From NCBI RefSeq assembly GCF_024612015.1, contig NZ_CP102512.1:10726001-10790000 (forward strand): a stretch of DNA of 64,000 nt, in the 5' to 3' direction. Both the position numbers and the translations under genes were made by a program. The notes under the pieces are model-generated. The model was not told where the DNA came from and ran no database searches. It saw nothing but the letters and a program-made list of their open reading frames with translations. Of the stretch, positions 7,969 through 55,002 are shown piece after piece. The DNA is from Streptomyces sp. CA-210063. GTDB taxonomy: Bacteria > Actinomycetota > Actinomycetes > Streptomycetales > Streptomycetaceae. The stretch's first letter is position 1, and each line of letters opens with the position of its first letter.

Positions 7969-8035
7969 GGTCGGTGGCTGTCTTGTCTGAGAAGGAACTG
8001 CGGCGACGGGCCCGGCGCTGCTTCTGATCCTGTCC

Positions 8036-45694: not shown

Positions 45695-46803
45695 TTTGAT
45701 CCGAAACGCTTTGTGTTCGCGCTCGTTGGTGGTGTGTGAGTGATCTGGTGGGGGATGCGCGGGCCTGGTCGCCGGACGCACAGGAGGCTGTACGTCTGCT
45801 GGCGGTGTCCGCGCTGGTGGACGGCCGGGACCGGTCGGAGGTTGCGGCCCTGTTCAGAGTGTCGGTCAGGGCCGTGGACAACTGGTGGGCGAGGTGGCAG
45901 GCGGGTGGCCGAGACGCGCTGATGTCCCGCCCGCGGGGCCGGCGCGCGGGTGAACATCAGGTTCTGTCCGAGGCTGAGCAGGCCGCTCTCCGGCAGGCCG
46001 TCGTGGACCACACTCCATCTGAACTGGGTCTTTCCGGTCAGCTGTGGACGCGAGGGCTGATAGGCGAACTGATCTTCACGCTGTACCGGGTCCGCTTCAC
46101 CGAGCCGGGAGTGGGCAAGTACCTCAAGCGGTGGGGACTGACGTTCCAGCGGCCGGACAAGCGGGCCGTCGAGCAGGACCCGGAGGCGGTCCGGATCTGG
46201 CACGAGGAGACCTGGCCGGCGATCCGGGCCAGAGCGAAGGCGGACAACGGTGAAGTCCTGTTTGCCGACCAGGTCGGCATCCGGTCGGACCAGGTCACCG
46301 GCCGGACCTGGGGGGCCAAAGGCGCGACGCCGGTCGTGCACCGCACCGGGAACCGGTTCTCGGTGAACGCGATGTCCGCGATCAGCACCAAAGGGCGGAT
46401 GCACTTCATGGTCTTCACCGAGTCGTTCGACGCGACGGTCATGTGCCGCTTCCTGGCCAGGCTCGTCGGCCACTTCGACCGCAAGGTCCACCTGGTCGTG
46501 GACCGGCACTCGGCCCACCGCTCGAAGGCCGTCCGGGCGTGGCTCGCCGACCACAAGGACCAGGTCGAACTGAACTTCCTGCCCTCGTACTCACCCGAAC
46601 TCAACCCGGACGAGCTGGTCAACGCCGACCTCAAACGCAGCCTGCCTCACACCCACCGGGCCAGGAACCAGACTGAACTCGCCTCCGAAACCCGGCGGTT
46701 CTTCCACCGTCGACAACGCCAACCTCACATTGTGCGTGGATACTTCGGCGGCCGACACGTCCGCTACGTCATCGACGAGTGGACCCCATGAGTTTTTGAT
46801 CAA
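45695..46803 (+). mobile_element. Intact IS630-family element
   Basis: The ends are flanked by TA at 45693-45694 and 46804-46805. They read inward TTTGATCCGAAACGC on the left and TTGATCAAAAACTC on the right, similar inverted termini. One uninterrupted transposase gene fills the element. The first 260 bases recur in inverted orientation at 49579-49832, and a relative of the 3' end recurs at 24175-24321. Confidence 0.8.
45736..46791 (+). CDS. IS630-family transposase
   Basis: 351 residues from GTG 45736, full length. The N-terminal HTH is SEVAALFRVSVRAVDNWWAR. The DDE catalytic domain has the first Asp in VLFADQVGIRSD, the second in LVVDRHSAHRSKAV and the Glu in SPELNPDELVNADL. No lesion is visible, so it may be the only fully active transposase of this group in the window and could act on the related fragments. 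Confidence 0.9.
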   Translation: MSDLVGDARAWSPDAQEAVRLLAVSALVDGRDRSEVAALFRVSVRAVDNWWARWQAGGRDALMSRPRGRRAGEHQVLSEAEQAALRQAVVDHTPSELGLSGQLWTRGLIGELIFTLYRVRFTEPGVGKYLKRWGLTFQRPDKRAVEQDPEAVRIWHEETWPAIRARAKADNGEVLFADQVGIRSDQVTGRTWGAKGATPVVHRTGNRFSVNAMSAISTKGRMHFMVFTESFDATVMCRFLARLVGHFDRKVHLVVDRHSAHRSKAVRAWLADHKDQVELNFLPSYSPELNPDELVNADLKRSLPHTHRARNQTELASETRRFFHRRQRQPHIVRGYFGGRHVRYVIDEWTP

Positions 46804-48688: not shown

Positions 48689-49357
48689 TCAGATCTTCCC
48701 CCGGTCCCACGCGTTCAGCATGCCGTCGAAGGAACGGACCAGGGCCAGTACGGCGGCGCCTGACCGCGGGTCCAGGAACGCTTCTTCAAGATGCACCTGG
48801 TTTCCGTGCGCCTTGAATTCCAGTGGCACCCGGCCGCCCTCGCGCCAGATGATGCGGCCCGGTCCACGAGGAAGGTCGCCGCCCCCGCCCAGCACGGCCG
48901 CCACGAAGAGGAACGGCAGCAGGGGCGAGAACAGCCACCACACGCACCACCAGACGATCCGGCCCTTGTATCCCACCGCGTCGGGTGCGCCGGGCCGGCT
49001 CACCGTCCACCGGGTACGCAGCCCCCTCCTGAACGCCTTCTCGCGTACGACGGTGCAGAGGAGCTCACCCTGCGCGCCGAGTACTTGATAGACCGAGACG
49101 CCCTTCGCGCAGGAGGCGGTCACCACGGTGGCGACCCGCGCCCCGCGGTACTCGTCCGCCCACAGGACGAAGGAGCGTGCGCCGCTGCCCCGGGCCGCGA
49201 GATAGGCGGGCACGCCCCCCGGCGGCAGCTCCCGTTCCACGTGGCCGACCGTCCAGGACGGTCCCGGCTTGACAAAGAGGTTGATCTTGCGGGCGACCGG
49301 CTCGGGAGTGACCCCCTCCTGTCGCCTCGGGTGAGTCATCGTCAGCATGCCGACCAT
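48689..49357 (-). CDS. Hypothetical membrane-associated protein
   Basis: 222 residues from ATG 49357, with GAGGGGG about 8 bases upstream (ATG 49339 is also possible). Beta-rich segments (ARSFVLWADEYRGARVATVV; GELLCTVVREKAFRRGLRTR) flank one very hydrophobic, Trp-rich helix pair region (IVWWCVWWLFSPLLPFLFVA). The C-terminus resembles scramblase or LURP-one-like short proteins only loosely. No function is claimed. The 3' end overlaps the treZ-like remnant region. Confidence 0.55.
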   Translation of the reverse strand: MVGMLTMTHPRRQEGVTPEPVARKINLFVKPGPSWTVGHVERELPPGGVPAYLAARGSGARSFVLWADEYRGARVATVVTASCAKGVSVYQVLGAQGELLCTVVREKAFRRGLRTRWTVSRPGAPDAVGYKGRIVWWCVWWLFSPLLPFLFVAAVLGGGGDLPRGPGRIIWREGGRVPLEFKAHGNQVHLEEAFLDPRSGAAVLALVRSFDGMLNAWDRGKI

Positions 49358-49578
49358 CCGGCTTCCCCCTCGTACGGTCCTCGCCGGTGCGAGGAGCGTA
49401 CGGATCCTACGGCCGTGAGGGTGCTTGTGCCGCTGGGGCCGGGCAACTCGCGTTCCGAGTAAGGGTCTTCGCCCGGCGACGCCGTGCCGACGCGCGGGAG
49501 ACGGCTCAGACGACGATGACCCGGCGCCCGCGCGCGTGACCGGCCTGGCTGTCGATGTGCGCCGCCGCGGCCTCGCAC

Positions 49579-49832
49579 CCGCGCGCCGGCCCCGCGGGCG
49601 GGACATCAGCGCGTCTCGGCCACCCGCCTGCCACCTCGCCCACCAGTTGTCCACGGCCCTGACCGACACTCTGAACAGGGCCGCAACCTCCGACCGGTCC
49701 CGACCGTCCACCAGCGCGGACACCGCCAGCAGACGTACAGCCTCCTGTGCGTCCGGCGACCAGGCCCGCGCATCCCCCACCAGATCACTCACACACCACC
49801 AACGAGCGCGAACACAAAGCGTTTCGGATCAA
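49579..49832 (-). mobile_element. Truncated inverted copy of the IS630 element (5' end)
   Basis: The first 40 bases of terminus and about 70 codons of transposase (MSDLVGDARAWSPDAQEAVR to RPRGRRAG) match 45695-45950 almost exactly, in opposite orientation. One mismatch is visible by eye (GACGGCCGGG versus GACGGTCGGG). TA follows the terminus at 49833-49834. The copy ends abruptly at about 49579. Together with the intact element it forms a roughly 250-bp inverted repeat around 46.8-49.6 kb. Confidence 0.85.
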
Positions 49833-49937: not shown

Positions 49938-50294
49938 TCACTTCGATGTCGTCGCGAGGCGGCTGCGGGTGACGTTCATGGCCGGGTCGTCGGTGGGCAT
50001 GCCGAGGAGTTCGTGGAGTTCTCGGACCCGGAATGCCTGGTCGGGGTGCTGGTTGAAGGCGTTCACGATGGCCTGGTAGGTGGTGGCCTGTTCGGGCGGA
50101 CCGTGCTCGCCTCCTTCGCCGGTCGGCGCGAGTTCGGCGATGATCTTTCGAGTGGTGGCCAGGTCCGCGAGATGCGCTTCGGTCTCGGTGAGTGCGCCGG
50201 TCAAGTCCTCTATTTGTCTGCGGAGTTCATCAGCCCGGGCAGCGGCGTCGTCGTGGCGGGCCTGGAGATCGGTCAGGAGCTCGGTGATGTTCAC
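49938..50294 (-). CDS. Accessory ORF coupled to the IS5-type transposase
   Basis: 118 residues from GTG 50294, overlapping the transposase stop by GTGA. A heptad-rich coiled coil comes first (NITELLTDLQARHDDAAARA, DELRRQIEDLTGALTETEAH). A small helical domain follows (TYQAIVNAFNQHPDQAFRVR, ELHELLGMP) that looks like a winged helix. Translational coupling to the transposase suggests a regulator or assembly factor of that element. No described family is recognised. Confidence 0.6.
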   Translation of the reverse strand: MNITELLTDLQARHDDAAARADELRRQIEDLTGALTETEAHLADLATTRKIIAELAPTGEGGEHGPPEQATTYQAIVNAFNQHPDQAFRVRELHELLGMPTDDPAMNVTRSRLATTSK

Positions 50295-51145
50295 GAGGCC
50301 GCTCGGAGGGTGTCGCGCCAGGCCGGGCTGGGTGCGGTGAGGCGACGGGACATGTTCGCGGTGGCGGCCCAGTAGACGCACGAGGCGGAGGTGTCGGGCC
50401 GGTGGTCGTACTCGCGAGCCAGGCGCCGGTGCAGCATCAGGGTGCCGTTGACCTGCTCGACCACCCACCGCTTCGGTTGTGGGACGAAGCCTTTGCCCTG
50501 GTCGGCCGGGTTGCGGCGGACGACCTCGACGGTGATGTCCAGCAGTGCGCCGTGGATGATGACTTCGTCCTTGAAGCCCTGGTCCACGAGGGCCTTCTCG
50601 AGACGGTTCCCGCACCGTTCGGCCGCCAGATCGAGCAGGGCGGTGCCGGCGGCGTTGCCGTGGGCGGAGGCGGCCAGGACGACGACGCCGATGATCAGGC
50701 CCAGCACGTCGACGGCCAGTCCCCGCTTGCGCCCCGGCGTCCTCTTGTTCACATCCAGTCCCGTCGTGGTCTTCGGGACACCCGCGGCCGCACGCACGGA
50801 CTGGGTGTCGATGATCACGAGGGACGGGTCCTCTAATCGGCGGGCCTTCTCCCGTACCTGACAGCGCAGGAGTTCCTGGATCCGCTGGTCAAGGCCGTCC
50901 TCGCGCCAGAGCGTGAAGTAGTAGAACACCGCCGACCAGGCGGGAAGGTCATGGGGCAGGTAGCGCCACTGACAGCCGGTCCGGTTCTGGTAGAAGATCG
51001 CGTTCACGACCTCCCGGAGATCGCGGGTCCCGGGGTCTCCGGTCGCCGACCGTCTCACCCGGTCCTGCTTCCAGGCCGTGATCATCGGCTCGATCAACAC
51101 CCAGTGCTCGTCCGATAAGTCGCTCGGATACGGTCTTCGATCCAT
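50291..51145 (-). CDS. IS5-family transposase
   Basis: 284 residues from ATG 51145. The DUF4096 start is PYPSDLSDEHWVLIEPMI, then CQWRYLPHDLPAWSAVFYYF. The catalytic triad is visible as Asp in LVIIDTQSVRAAAGV, Asp in ALVDQGFKDEVI and Glu in RWVVEQVNGTLMLHRRLARE. The frame is open and complete. The element's terminal repeats could not be found by eye, so its limits are not given. The coupled ORF at 49938-50294 extends it. Confidence 0.85.
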   Translation of the reverse strand: MDRRPYPSDLSDEHWVLIEPMITAWKQDRVRRSATGDPGTRDLREVVNAIFYQNRTGCQWRYLPHDLPAWSAVFYYFTLWREDGLDQRIQELLRCQVREKARRLEDPSLVIIDTQSVRAAAGVPKTTTGLDVNKRTPGRKRGLAVDVLGLIIGVVVLAASAHGNAAGTALLDLAAERCGNRLEKALVDQGFKDEVIIHGALLDITVEVVRRNPADQGKGFVPQPKRWVVEQVNGTLMLHRRLAREYDHRPDTSASCVYWAATANMSRRLTAPSPAWRDTLRAAS

Positions 51146-51217
51146 GCCCGCATCCCAGCATGCGCATGGCGAACGGTCGGCTCGTACGGCGATCAGTACC
51201 ACGATCGAGCGATCACG

Positions 51218-51342
51218 AACCGAGGAAGATCGGACTTAACGCCCTCTTCGACCTCGCCGACACGATCATCACCGTCCGCGGCCTCATCCGCCGCTCCTGG
51301 AAGACCCACCGCTGGGACGCGCGGCCTTCTCGGTGCCCGTGA
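51218..51342 (+). pseudogene. IS5-family transposase, C-terminal tail fragment
   Basis: The short plus-strand frame NALFDLADTIITVRGLIRRS then WKTHRWDARPSR is the usual last 30-35 residues of another IS5-type transposase. It overlaps nothing else and stands beside the complete IS5 copy in opposite orientation. Only the tail remains. Confidence 0.6.
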
Positions 51343-51379: not shown

Positions 51380-51685
51380 ATGGGCGGCACCATGGACGAC
51401 GAGAAGCCACGACCCAGGTGGCGATTCACCCTGCCCTGGGCAATCCTCGACGTGTTCGCCGACGGCCCCGCCCCCTCGGCGCTGCAAGCCACCGCCGCAG
51501 CCCTCGCTCACCTGGAAGACCGCTTCCGTCCCGCACTGCTCCGCCCGAACCGATGGCCGGAGGGCGCCTACGCGGCAGTCCGGCCTGCAAACCAGTCGAT
51601 GCCTGAGCCTGCCGGAATTCCGGCGGAACCGGGCTTGCAGGAGCTGGTTGAGGAGATCAGCGCCTGCAGCAGCGAGGTTCCCTGA
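51380..51685 (+). CDS. Small protein paired with the CHAT protease
   Basis: 101 residues from ATG 51380 (ATG 51392 would give 97). It has no signal peptide or membrane segment. Aromatic stretches (RWRFTLPWAILDVFADG) precede a helix (LQATAAALAHLEDRFRPAL), then a Pro-rich linker, and the end is acidic (GLQELVEEISACSSEVP). The stop is two bases before the ATG of the CHAT gene, so the two are translated together. It could be a sensor, inhibitor or substrate of the protease. No family is recognised. Confidence 0.6.
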   Translation: MGGTMDDEKPRPRWRFTLPWAILDVFADGPAPSALQATAAALAHLEDRFRPALLRPNRWPEGAYAAVRPANQSMPEPAGIPAEPGLQELVEEISACSSEVP

Positions 51686-51687
51686 CG

Positions 51688-53841
51688 ATGTCGTCACCGT
51701 TCGAGAAGCCGCCGTTGTACGTGGTCCCGTTCACTCCGGGAGCCGCGGAGGGCCGGGCTCAGGACCAGTCAGCCTACGCACCCGTTCTGTTTGAGCGCCC
51801 GGAGGCTGTGGAGTCGACCGTCCCCCACGGTCTGGCCAAAACGGTGGCCACCGCGCTGCCCGGGCTCTGGTACTGCCTGCACCTACCCGCCGCGCTCTCG
51901 GACCTCATCGACGTCGATATCTGGATGCTCAAGGCAGCCCAGAACCTGAGCCTTGAGCACAACATCCTGCTGGTGCCGATCGACTGCTTCGACGAGGACG
52001 TACTCGGTCGTCATCTGCAGTACCACCATCCCGTGGTCACCATCTGCCCGGACGAACTGCTGGACGAAGCCCGGCAGCGGGCCTCGACACTGGGATTCGC
52101 GCTGCCTACGACTCCCTACTCCCAGCTGTCCGACGCCACCCTCACCGCTCAGTGGAAGGCCGTTCACGAGCACTTCATCCCCGATCTGCCGAGGCTGACG
52201 GGGGAGGTGCCCCTCACTCACCGCCTGGATCTGGCCCCCCTCACCCTGCCTCACCGCAGGCTGGCCCGACAGATGGGATGGCCAACTGCAGAGTCGGTCG
52301 TCCAGGACACGAGCGCGAGCGAAGCATTCGCGCAGGCCCTCCGTGGCCAGACCTTCTTGGCCGCTTTGACGCGCCTGGAACGGGAGGGGGCATCCCACGA
52401 CGAGGCTGACCGACGCTTCCGCCAGACATTCGAGGAAGAAGCAACCCGACTGCGGGTACCAGTTGCACTGGCCCTGCCGGGTACGGCACCGGCCTACGCC
52501 CGCATCGCCTACGACAGTGAGCTACGGCGCCGGACGGGACCCCAGTCCGCCGTCAACCCGAACGACACATGGTCGGTCACGCTCCACGAACGCCCCGATC
52601 ACATGGTCGAACGAGCAGCCATCGAATTCGCAGTGACGCACCAGTCCGTCGCGAGCAGCGGACTGGGCCTCATGCTGCCCACCATGCCCCCGGACGCTTT
52701 CATCACTCTTGCCGAACTCGAACGGCATTTCCACACCCCCCACAGCAGCGCCGCCGTGAGACGTCTGCTCACCCGGCTCAATGACGCGGCCCAGCCGCTA
52801 TGGAGCAAAGAACTGAAGGCCGCCATCCAGCGAGCCTCGTACCTGACGGTGTTCTCCGACTTTCCTCTCGGCCTGCTGACCATGCCCGGAGACAGCGCCC
52901 CGCTGTGCGCACGCCTGCCCGTCATGTACAGGCCCTTGCAGCCATTGACCAGGATGGTGCAGCAGCAGCTGTCCGCCCCACCGGCCATGAGCCTGGACCG
53001 CAGCATCAAAGTCCTGGTGGCCGAGTGCATCCCTGTCAGCGACCCGGTCGGACGGATGTCGAGACAGGGATGGGACATTGCCCGCGAGACCGTCGCACCC
53101 GACTCGGTCACACTCACCATCATCCAAGCCGAGACCCTCACCCTTGAAGCTCTCCGGCAATCCGTGGCCGAACACCGCCCCGACATCCTCATCATCAGCG
53201 CGCACGGAACGATGGTCGGCAACATGGCCGCGCTTGTGGTTGGTGACGCGCCACACCTGGACCTCGGCCTGGACCGTATGCCGCCGGTGGTTATCCTCAG
53301 CGCCTGCCACGTCGCCCCCCGCGGCTCCGGCACCGTGGCCATCACCGATCTCCTGCTACGGGAAGGCGCCCTGGCGGTACTCGGCACACAAGTCCCAGTC
53401 GACGTCAGACGTAACGCCATGCTGATGGTCCGCTTCATGGTGTATCTCGCCAAAGAGAACACGAAGCCCGGACAGTTCTCCACCATCCTGGACGTGTGGC
53501 ATCACGTGCAGACGTCGAACGCGGTCAACGACATCATCGACGGAAGCCCCAGCCTCAGGGCATGGGGCACCAGCACCACCATCAATGGCCGGCCTGTCCT
53601 TGTCGAGTTCATGAGCAGCCGGGCCGTCGGCCGAATCCGTCCGCCACACGTCTACGAAGACACCGAACGTGTCCTGGGCGAGATCGCCGACGAGCAGGGC
53701 CAGGGCGACCGCGTACGTAACTGGTTCCGCAGGCCGGGCTACGTCCCCGAATCGCTGTTCTACATCTTCGCCGGTCGTCCCGACCGCATTCACCTCACAC
53801 CCCTGGAGCTGCTGACCGAACAAGCGTGCCCCGGGCGATAG
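51688..53841 (+). CDS. CHAT-domain (caspase-like) protease
   Basis: 717 residues. The CHAT domain occupies about residues 445-620: the strand IKVLVAECIPVSD, then HRPDILIISAHGTMVGNMAA with catalytic His506, then VVILSACHVAPRGSGTVAIT with Cys540, and LLREGALAVLGTQVPVDV. The N-terminal 440 residues lack visible TPRs, contain alpha/beta stretches (LIDVDIWMLKAAQNLSLEHN; NILLVPIDCFDEDVLG) and are not recognised. A C-terminal extension of about 100 residues follows (RVRNWFRRPGYVPESLFYIF). CHAT proteases act in separase-like cleavage and in several phage-defence systems. The target here is unknown. It is coupled to the upstream 101-residue gene. Confidence 0.8.
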   Translation: MSSPFEKPPLYVVPFTPGAAEGRAQDQSAYAPVLFERPEAVESTVPHGLAKTVATALPGLWYCLHLPAALSDLIDVDIWMLKAAQNLSLEHNILLVPIDCFDEDVLGRHLQYHHPVVTICPDELLDEARQRASTLGFALPTTPYSQLSDATLTAQWKAVHEHFIPDLPRLTGEVPLTHRLDLAPLTLPHRRLARQMGWPTAESVVQDTSASEAFAQALRGQTFLAALTRLEREGASHDEADRRFRQTFEEEATRLRVPVALALPGTAPAYARIAYDSELRRRTGPQSAVNPNDTWSVTLHERPDHMVERAAIEFAVTHQSVASSGLGLMLPTMPPDAFITLAELERHFHTPHSSAAVRRLLTRLNDAAQPLWSKELKAAIQRASYLTVFSDFPLGLLTMPGDSAPLCARLPVMYRPLQPLTRMVQQQLSAPPAMSLDRSIKVLVAECIPVSDPVGRMSRQGWDIARETVAPDSVTLTIIQAETLTLEALRQSVAEHRPDILIISAHGTMVGNMAALVVGDAPHLDLGLDRMPPVVILSACHVAPRGSGTVAITDLLLREGALAVLGTQVPVDVRRNAMLMVRFMVYLAKENTKPGQFSTILDVWHHVQTSNAVNDIIDGSPSLRAWGTSTTINGRPVLVEFMSSRAVGRIRPPHVYEDTERVLGEIADEQGQGDRVRNWFRRPGYVPESLFYIFAGRPDRIHLTPLELLTEQACPGR

Positions 53842-54042: not shown

Positions 54043-54203
54043 AGAGCTTCGGCGTAGTCGGGTGGCGTCCGATTTGTGTTCAAGTGGGGCCGGCTTCGAC
54101 AAGATCAAGACGGCTCCCGCAACCGCCATGCCATGGGAGGCGGCGACGTCCCGCCCCTGTGCGAAACTGCCGCCCACCCTCTGCCTCGGCCCTTGCTTCA
54201 CCT

Positions 54204-54237
54204 ATCGAATTACGATAGATTCCCATCGTGATTCGAT
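54204..54237. promoter_or_regulatory. Palindromic operator before the DUF2975/XRE genes
   Basis: ATCGAATTACGAT (54204-54216) and ATCGTGATTCGAT (54225-54237) are 13-bp inverted arms with one mismatch and an 8-base spacer, ending 13 bases before the ATG at 54251. It is locally AT-rich. Its position suggests autoregulation by the XRE protein. Confidence 0.65.
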
Positions 54238-54250
54238 GGAAGGATGGGTC

Positions 54251-54742
54251 ATGGGAAAGCTGACCGTGCGTGCGCTGCGCGCCCTGCTCGTGGTGGTGCT
54301 CGCCGGCACCGTGCTCGTGCAGGCATTGATGGTGTGGACATTGGTCAGCGGGAGCGACCCGGAGGACGGGTCGCTCCCGCTGACCGCGCTGCGCGTGATC
54401 ACGATCCTGGGCATGGTGTCGGTCCAGGTCGCCCTGGTCTGCGTATGGCGGCTGGTGACGATGGTGCGACGCGGAACCGTGTTCTCCCACGCCGCCTTCC
54501 GGTACGTGGACGGCGTGATCGGCGCGATCGTGGCGGCTGCCCTCGTATGGTTCGCGGTCACGGCCATCAATGCGCCGGGCCAGAGGGACGACCCGGGCGT
54601 CACCGTCATCATGGGCGGGGTTGGCGTGGCCATCCTGGGGGTCGCGCTCATCGTGCTCGTGCTGCGGATGCTGCTCGCCCAGGCCGTCGCGCGCGACGTC
54701 GAAGCGACGCGGATGCAGGCCGAGCTGGACGAGGTGATCTGA
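54251..54742 (+). CDS. DUF2975-family membrane protein
   Basis: 163 residues from ATG 54251, with GGAAGGA six bases upstream. Four hydrophobic helices (ALLVVVLAGTVLVQALMVWT; VITILGMVSVQVALVCVWRL; GVIGAIVAAALVWFAVTAI; VGVAILGVALIVLVLRMLL) are arranged as in DUF2975 proteins, with the loop LVTMVRRGTVFSHAAFRYVD between helices 2 and 3. The family is nearly always coupled to a small XRE regulator, as here (TGATG overlap at 54740-54744). It may act as a membrane sensor or effector in stress or sporulation control. Confidence 0.85.
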   Translation: MGKLTVRALRALLVVVLAGTVLVQALMVWTLVSGSDPEDGSLPLTALRVITILGMVSVQVALVCVWRLVTMVRRGTVFSHAAFRYVDGVIGAIVAAALVWFAVTAINAPGQRDDPGVTVIMGGVGVAILGVALIVLVLRMLLAQAVARDVEATRMQAELDEVI

Positions 54743-55002
54743 TGCCGATCGCCGTCGACATCGACGTGATGCTGGCCAGGCGGAAGATGTCCGTGGGCGA
54801 GCTCGCGGACCGCGTAGGGATCACGCCCGCCAACCTGGCGGTCCTCAAGAACGGCCGCGCCAAGGCGGTGCGCTTCGCGACGCTCGCCGCGCTCTGCGAG
54901 GTGCTCAAGTGCCAGCCGGGCGACCTGCTGCGCTGGGAGGCTGAGGACGCGCAGCTGACTGACGTGCCCTTCCAAGATCATGGAGTTCTCGACGCCCCGT
55001 GA
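54742..55002 (+). CDS. XRE-family regulator (YozG-like) paired with DUF2975
   Basis: 86 residues. The core is VDIDVMLARRKMSVGELADR then VGITPANLAVLKNGRAKAVR, FATLAALCEVLKCQPGDLLR, a compact Cro/C1-type HTH. Relatives end soon after LLRWEAEDA. Here about 17 further residues (QLTDVPFQDHGVLDAP) run into ISAs1 sequence, so the C-terminal tail may be a junction product. The palindrome at 54204-54237 is its likely operator. Confidence 0.85.
   Translation: MPIAVDIDVMLARRKMSVGELADRVGITPANLAVLKNGRAKAVRFATLAALCEVLKCQPGDLLRWEAEDAQLTDVPFQDHGVLDAP

Follow-up and report, generated by a model that had tools for sequence, protein, structure and literature searches.

Two adjacent reading frames in Streptomyces sp. 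CA-210063 raise the question of whether a CHAT protease works there with a small partner protein or by itself, and whether its task is defence. The stretch analyzed (hereafter, the window) comprises 64,000 nucleotides, positions 10,726,001–10,790,000 of a single-contig 10.86-Mb genome, ~70 kb from the contig end; window positions 51380–53841 hold an open reading frame (ORF) of 101 residues and, after a gap of two bases, one of 717 residues. An initial annotation, whose coordinates and spacing for the two ORFs were confirmed in the sequence, had read them as a two-gene module of the defence type in which the small protein might serve as sensor, inhibitor or cleaved effector of the CHAT protease. 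We propose instead that the larger gene alone encodes a Borvo-like CHAT protease whose N-terminal half is different and probably sensory, a reading to which, taken as a whole, we give a probability of roughly 62%. It is supported by a match to the protein BovA and collinearity with it, by low ratios of nonsynonymous to synonymous substitution rates (dN/dS), by the catalytic dyad, by the lack of a conserved neighbour and by defence genes near relatives of the gene.

The CHAT protease gene and its relation to BovA

The 717-residue protein is divided as follows:

51688..52626, forward strand: residues 1–313, unrecognized lineage-specific N-terminal half
52627..53007, forward strand: residues 314–440, linker collinear with BovA (hhalign, 9.4e-5)
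53008..53472, forward strand: residues 441–595, CHAT protease core (Pfam CHAT, 37.9 bits; hhalign to BovA, 1.5e-18)
53473..53841, forward strand: residues 596–717 and stop codon, C-terminal tail collinear with the BovA tail (hhalign, 7.6e-4)

The ORF (51688–53841) is intact and has a coding-type G+C content at third codon positions (GC3) across almost its entire length. The CHAT core that the initial annotation had recognized is borne out, in that the Pfam CHAT profile (PF12770) matches residues 482–591 above its gathering score of 24 bits, and the 717-residue protein is the sole CHAT match in its own genome at E ≤ 0.001. The predicted catalytic residues, His506 (codon 53203–53205, in ISAHG) and Cys540 (codon 53305–53307, in LSACH), are invariant in all seven full-length Streptomyces-group sequences, the window's included, and in 10/10 rows of a mixed alignment with BovA-type proteins. 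Tyr692 and Gly696 (Tyr697 and Gly701 of the BovA-type plasmid locus L007) are likewise invariant in the 10-row alignment, and the C-terminal tail carries the motif ES-(L/M)-FY-x-F-x-GRP-x-RI. PHROGs placed one family of unknown function over the CHAT core, NCBIfam gave no match to the protein, and the Pfam scan gave no match to a tetratricopeptide repeat (TPR) profile. A scan for promoters and terminators gave 0 promoters and 2 terminator-like sites against 1.5 expected, not clearly above chance.

Close relatives of the gene, of which those with names are in Streptomyces, have identities of 87% in Streptomyces sp. NRRL WC-3549 (locus L002), 88% on a linear plasmid of S. laculatispora (L006) and 81% in genome G039 (L004; a wider stretch of the same locus is L057). 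Start and leader are kept in all three, and comparison of the window gene with L002, L006 and L004 gives dN/dS values of 0.16, 0.14 and 0.20, respectively, or 0.16, 0.14 and 0.22 for the first 313 codons only. We conclude that this is a real, intact gene which, by its predicted dyad, encodes a caspase-like cysteine protease. Three divergent full-length relatives (52–55%) occur in genomes G836, G998 and G947 (loci L067, L068 and L069), in which residues 1–313 are 44–49% identical, and fragments of the gene occur in G248 and G1026. A search with the single window protein at E ≤ 1e-10 found a CHAT relative in 3/392 genomes of a genus sample (own genome and one fragment counted), and a search with alignment A4 at E ≤ 1e-6 found the family in 7/391 genomes of an order sample, a count that takes in its own genome and two fragments, so that by these searches the protein is a member of a sparse Streptomycetaceae family. 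RefSeq places the start of the S. laculatispora gene at 8157 in L006, 52 codons after position 8001, where L002, L004 and the window have their conserved start.

BovA (PDLC03831), which we take to be the protein of the single-gene anti-phage Borvo system, is the only PADLOC family that the protein matches (E = 1e-18, 65 bits; judged by these two values, PADLOC's own thresholds not being shown). Borvo is a CHAT system that acts by abortive infection. The match aligns residues 341–705 to profile positions 349–714 of 720 and is thus wider than the stretch covered by PF12770. The six other full-length relatives likewise match BovA and no other PADLOC family. Apart from the window's own, a BovA search across 396 phylum genomes returned 13 matches, none of which spans more than 145 profile positions, as against 366 for the window. 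A Rhizobium leguminosarum plasmid protein that was found with the window protein (31% identity over residues 386–589) itself matches the BovA profile with 687 bits over residues 6–713 of 738.

The Streptomyces proteins were also compared, as profiles, with eight proteins of the BovA type, of which seven came from plasmid records and one from a phage. With four Streptomyces rows, the comparison gave a local match of residues 314–707 to BovA-type residues 322–716 at E = 1.8e-17. When the protein was cut into N-terminus, linker, core and tail and each piece was compared using seven Streptomyces rows and 40 column shuffles, the scores of linker, core and tail were reached by 0/40 shuffles each, and the linker and tail matches fell at the same places in the two families. 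The window protein thus resembles BovA in length (717 residues against a 720-position profile), in its collinear linker, core and tail, in its His/Cys dyad and in being encoded by a single gene that has no obligatory partner across seven full-length loci; it differs in residues 1–313, which lack detectable homology, and in an overall identity to the Rhizobium protein of 25%. The initial annotation had left the first 440 residues unrecognized; of these, residues 314–440 are tied to BovA by collinearity, and residues 1–313 gave no match in Pfam, NCBIfam or PADLOC. Because the N-terminal half was tested and has no match to BovA, we regard the protein as Borvo-like by its C-terminal 400 residues and not as Borvo proper.

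Searches of the PDB with the window protein and with a Streptomyces-only alignment (A5) gave 0 matches. The mixed alignment (A2) matched the CHAT cores of 8rot_B (6e-4) and 8d9h_E (E = 0.007), the latter over a stretch that spans both catalytic positions. Entries 8d9h and 7x8a ('CHAT domain protein') presumably represent Craspase, the gRAMP-associated TPR-CHAT protease, from which the window protein is set apart by the empty Streptomyces-only search and by its lack of a TPR profile match.

To compare neighbouring genes, all reading frames of at least 60 codons within 4 kb of the CHAT gene were searched against each other (E ≤ 1e-6) at seven full-length loci (the window, L002, L006, L057, L067, L068 and L069). 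Upstream, an ORF was shared in 1/21 locus pairs (L002 and L006, which resemble each other throughout their flanks), and downstream in 2/21 (L002 and L006 again, and L068 and L069 with a match of 58 residues); the gene directly upstream of the CHAT gene is a NUDIX gene in L067 and a KAP NTPase gene in L068. With no conserved neighbour on this comparison, the CHAT protease is stand-alone in the seven loci.

The 101-residue frame and the junction beside it

The DNA on the 5′ side of the CHAT gene is composed as follows:

50291..51202, reverse strand: IS5-family transposase of an insertion sequence (IS); DNA match of 50800–51247 to annotated IS5 family transposases of Streptomyces plasmids
51239..51342, forward strand: 3′ remnant of a second transposase gene, 5′ of the 101-residue ORF; same DNA 5′ of the small gene in loci L025 and L026
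51380..51685, forward strand: 101-residue ORF, a truncated N-terminal part (~90 residues) of a family of 143–154 residues, with its last ~14 codons in the CHAT leader
51594..51646, no strand: interval in or close to which two DNA modules join
51646..51687, forward strand: CHAT-gene leader, common to L002 and L006 and, from 51665, also to L004

The 101-residue ORF is 57% identical to its relative in L025 over residues 1–95, 58% identical to that in L026 over residues 15–75 and 51% identical to that in L027 over residues 4–67. Its full-length kin form an unnamed Streptomyces family of 143–154 residues with a CxxC-type C-terminus, a Cys-pair region (CHAC ... CPRCGSDFA in L026) before which the window ORF stops; three members of the family gave no Pfam match above cut-off. 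A pure chance ORF was considered and rejected because the coding relatives are real. In the genus sample the 101-residue protein matched 29/392 genomes at E ≤ 0.01, only four of them below 1e-10, namely its own genome, G300 (3.9e-29), G173 (8.9e-16) and G145 (1.7e-14). Among five of the 25 weaker matches that were re-examined, L028 is an apparent decayed remnant with an internal stop, and L029–L032 are apparent chance matches.

A survey for conserved pairing, the lack of which the initial annotation had named as one thing that would refute its module, found none. The small gene was found in 0/8 distinct genomes or replicons that carry the CHAT gene, the own genome matching as positive control; the full-length L026 protein was searched against G039, G248, the genome of L002 and the plasmid of L006 (0/4; for L006 the plasmid alone), and the 101-residue protein against G836, G998, G947, G1026 and again G039 (0/5), and two of the eight carriers, G248 and G1026, hold a CHAT fragment only. 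Conversely, alignment A4 found the CHAT gene in 0/3 carriers of the small gene (G300, G173 and G145), with G998 matching as positive control.

The limits of shared DNA point to how the two frames came together. The DNA common to the window and L025/L026 extends from 51239/51240 to 51588/51593 and takes in the transposase 3′ end and the start of the small gene; its transposase-side part is in L026 the end of a 280-residue ORF, which we take to be of transposase type, and L027 shares with the window only 55 bases, inside the small gene. Similarity to the CHAT loci starts at 51646 (L002 and L006) or 51665 (L004) and continues through the gene, and 5′ of these points the three loci differ from the window. 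They encode no significant relative of the 101-residue protein (best E = 0.47), and in L002 and L006 the counterpart of its frame has an in-frame stop at the start of the shared stretch. Therefore two modules can be distinguished, one of transposase end and small-gene start and the other of leader and CHAT gene, and these alignments put their meeting point at about 51594–51646; its exact position is uncertain because weak similarity to the L025 protein extends as far as residue 95 (51664).

By these comparisons the 101-residue ORF is the truncated part of an unrelated gene, placed beside the CHAT leader by a rearrangement in which the neighbouring IS probably had a role. Since the pair is not conserved and the modules are joined, the two-base 'coupling' between the TGA of the small ORF (51683–51685) and the ATG of the CHAT gene (51688) is an accident of the junction, and the case shows that DNA joined beside an IS can look like a two-gene system with translational coupling. 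That the ORF is no conserved partner of the CHAT protease we regard, from the sequence comparisons, as close to certain.

As a separate observation, at three loci (the window, L025 and L026) transposase-type sequence immediately precedes the gene of the 143–154-residue family, which is possibly a passenger gene of the IS; in L027 another ORF, presumably YaaA-like, stands 5′ of this gene.

Defence genes near relatives and competing explanations

A profile match to a defence or candidate-defence gene was found within ~6 kb of the CHAT gene in 4/6 other full-length loci. Two of these lie downstream: in L057, at 0.8 kb, the two-gene candidate system PDC-M68A/B (734 and 358 bits; a DUF2326 ATPase and an HNH protein), and in L006, at ~6 kb, a PDC-S73 candidate (402 bits; nSTAND3 with an Mrr-type nuclease, the gene being cut by the end of the stretch). 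The other two lie upstream: in L068 the adjacent gene encodes a PifA-type KAP NTPase (205 bits), and in L069, at ~1 kb, a large helicase matches a type IV restriction profile with 411 bits. The NUDIX gene of L067, a weak candidate-system match (45.8 bits), was not counted, and L002 has flanking genes in common with L006, but its stretch ends before the place of PDC-S73. Together with the match to BovA, these surroundings suggest that the protein is a defence-type CHAT protease, as the initial annotation had supposed, though stripped of the partner that it had been given.

Several observations weigh against a Borvo-like defence protease. Two of the seven order-sample matches are fragments, which indicates that some copies have decayed, and the figure of 4/6 is a description and not an enrichment test, since random Streptomyces genes were not scored as a control. 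Beside the window copy itself, where a DUF2975 gene and IS genes lie, no defence gene was seen, the window's neighbours not having been scanned with PADLOC. AlphaFold models reached a mean predicted local distance difference test score of 36 from the single sequence and 33 from five rows, too low for active-site geometry. In the piecewise comparison, residues 1–313 gave an hhalign p of 0.43 against the N-terminus of BovA, a score that 12/40 shuffles reached, and earlier N-terminal tests agree, although divergence may hide a remote homology. A tree of CHAT cores, whose generic CHAT rows were 11 of the 13 loci L010–L022 from the phylum-wide BovA search (L019 and L020 left out), places the Streptomyces family on a long branch of 1.4 substitutions per site; unrooted and built from the core only, it has three groups, the Streptomyces family, BovA and other CHAT proteins, whose order is not resolvable.

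Other explanations fare differently against the same evidence. The 101-residue protein could be an inhibitor, sensor or substrate that is translationally coupled to the CHAT protease, as the two-base spacing on the same strand and the coding-type GC3 of both frames (0.78 and 0.80) would suggest; but the small gene is absent from the eight other CHAT carriers and the CHAT gene from the three carriers of the small gene, the small ORF is cut before the conserved Cys pair, and it ends in codons made up of CHAT-leader DNA, the L002 and L006 counterpart of which opens with a stop. We reject this two-gene module, and with it the role of sensor, inhibitor or cleaved effector, as scarcely credible. It is unlikely, with a somewhat better claim to attention, that the protease serves regulated proteolysis in housekeeping or development and not phage defence. 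Proteolysis plays a part in Streptomyces development, the N-terminus does not resemble that of BovA, and the window copy has no visible defence neighbour; such a role is nevertheless at odds with the sparse, patchy distribution in the genus and order samples, with the copy on a linear plasmid and with flanks that differ between most loci, several of them holding defence-type genes.

A decaying, non-functional relic in an IS-rich chromosome arm would agree with the position of the CHAT gene beside IS sequence and a truncated gene and with the fragments in G248 and G1026. It sits poorly with an intact 717-codon frame, with a start and leader kept in three other loci, with retained catalytic and family motifs and with dN/dS of 0.14–0.20, and we consider it quite improbable. 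In place of the wrong pairing stands a single-gene, Borvo-like Streptomyces family in which the protease half is conserved and the N-terminal half is of unknown kind.

For this single-gene protease we propose that residues ~1–313 act as a lineage-specific regulatory or sensor half that would hold the protease inactive until an infection signal arrives, and that the C-terminal 400 residues (linker, His506/Cys540 core and tail) form the conserved protease part. The released CHAT core would cut one or more cell proteins, and cleavage would lead to growth arrest or death of the infected cell and so end the infection, the 101-residue ORF taking no part. In this scheme we infer phage defence as the purpose, cell death, sensing by the N-terminus, the trigger and the substrate. 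A bolder and rather doubtful extension is that Borvo-type CHAT proteases are modular, with a conserved C-terminal protease half and exchangeable N-terminal sensor halves, residues 1–313 of the Streptomycetaceae proteins perhaps being a new sensor fold for actinophage triggers unlike those of proteobacterial BovA. If the N-terminus is a swapped sensor, chimeras with BovA would directly reveal phage recognition by CHAT immune proteases.

Neighbouring genes and viral relatives

On the 3′ side of the CHAT gene in the window, positions 54062–54981 hold a gene for a DUF2975 protein followed by that of an apparent small helix-turn-helix regulator. Further upstream, the ORFs at 45736–46791 and 48689–49792 have the same N-terminal ~70 residues, which by eye we take to be IS630-like transposase sequence; the second then enters unrelated sequence and looks like a truncated IS copy fused to another gene. 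Downstream of the CHAT gene in L006 (10621–15400) and L002 (8827–13621) lie genes for a protein of 1031/1036 residues and then one of 508 residues (HEPN domain in RefSeq), a possible unnamed two-gene system of which the L006 copies gave no match in Pfam (E ≤ 0.001) or PADLOC (E ≤ 0.01).

The neighbours of the BovA-type plasmid genes mostly differ, with the exception of two pairs of loci: L007 and L041 share an RHE_PE00001-family gene upstream, and L042 and L046 share tcmP and a DUF5131 or Gp37/Gp68 gene downstream. When viral contigs were scanned, neither the window protein nor the Rhizobium BovA nor alignment A1 found a relative, and alignment A2 found 10 relatives of BovA. By alignment, BovA-related CHAT genes are present in cdtI and Ayreon, both phages of Escherichia coli, and in ten viral contigs (L039, 2660–4792; L047–L056), and these are possibly prophage-borne defence genes.

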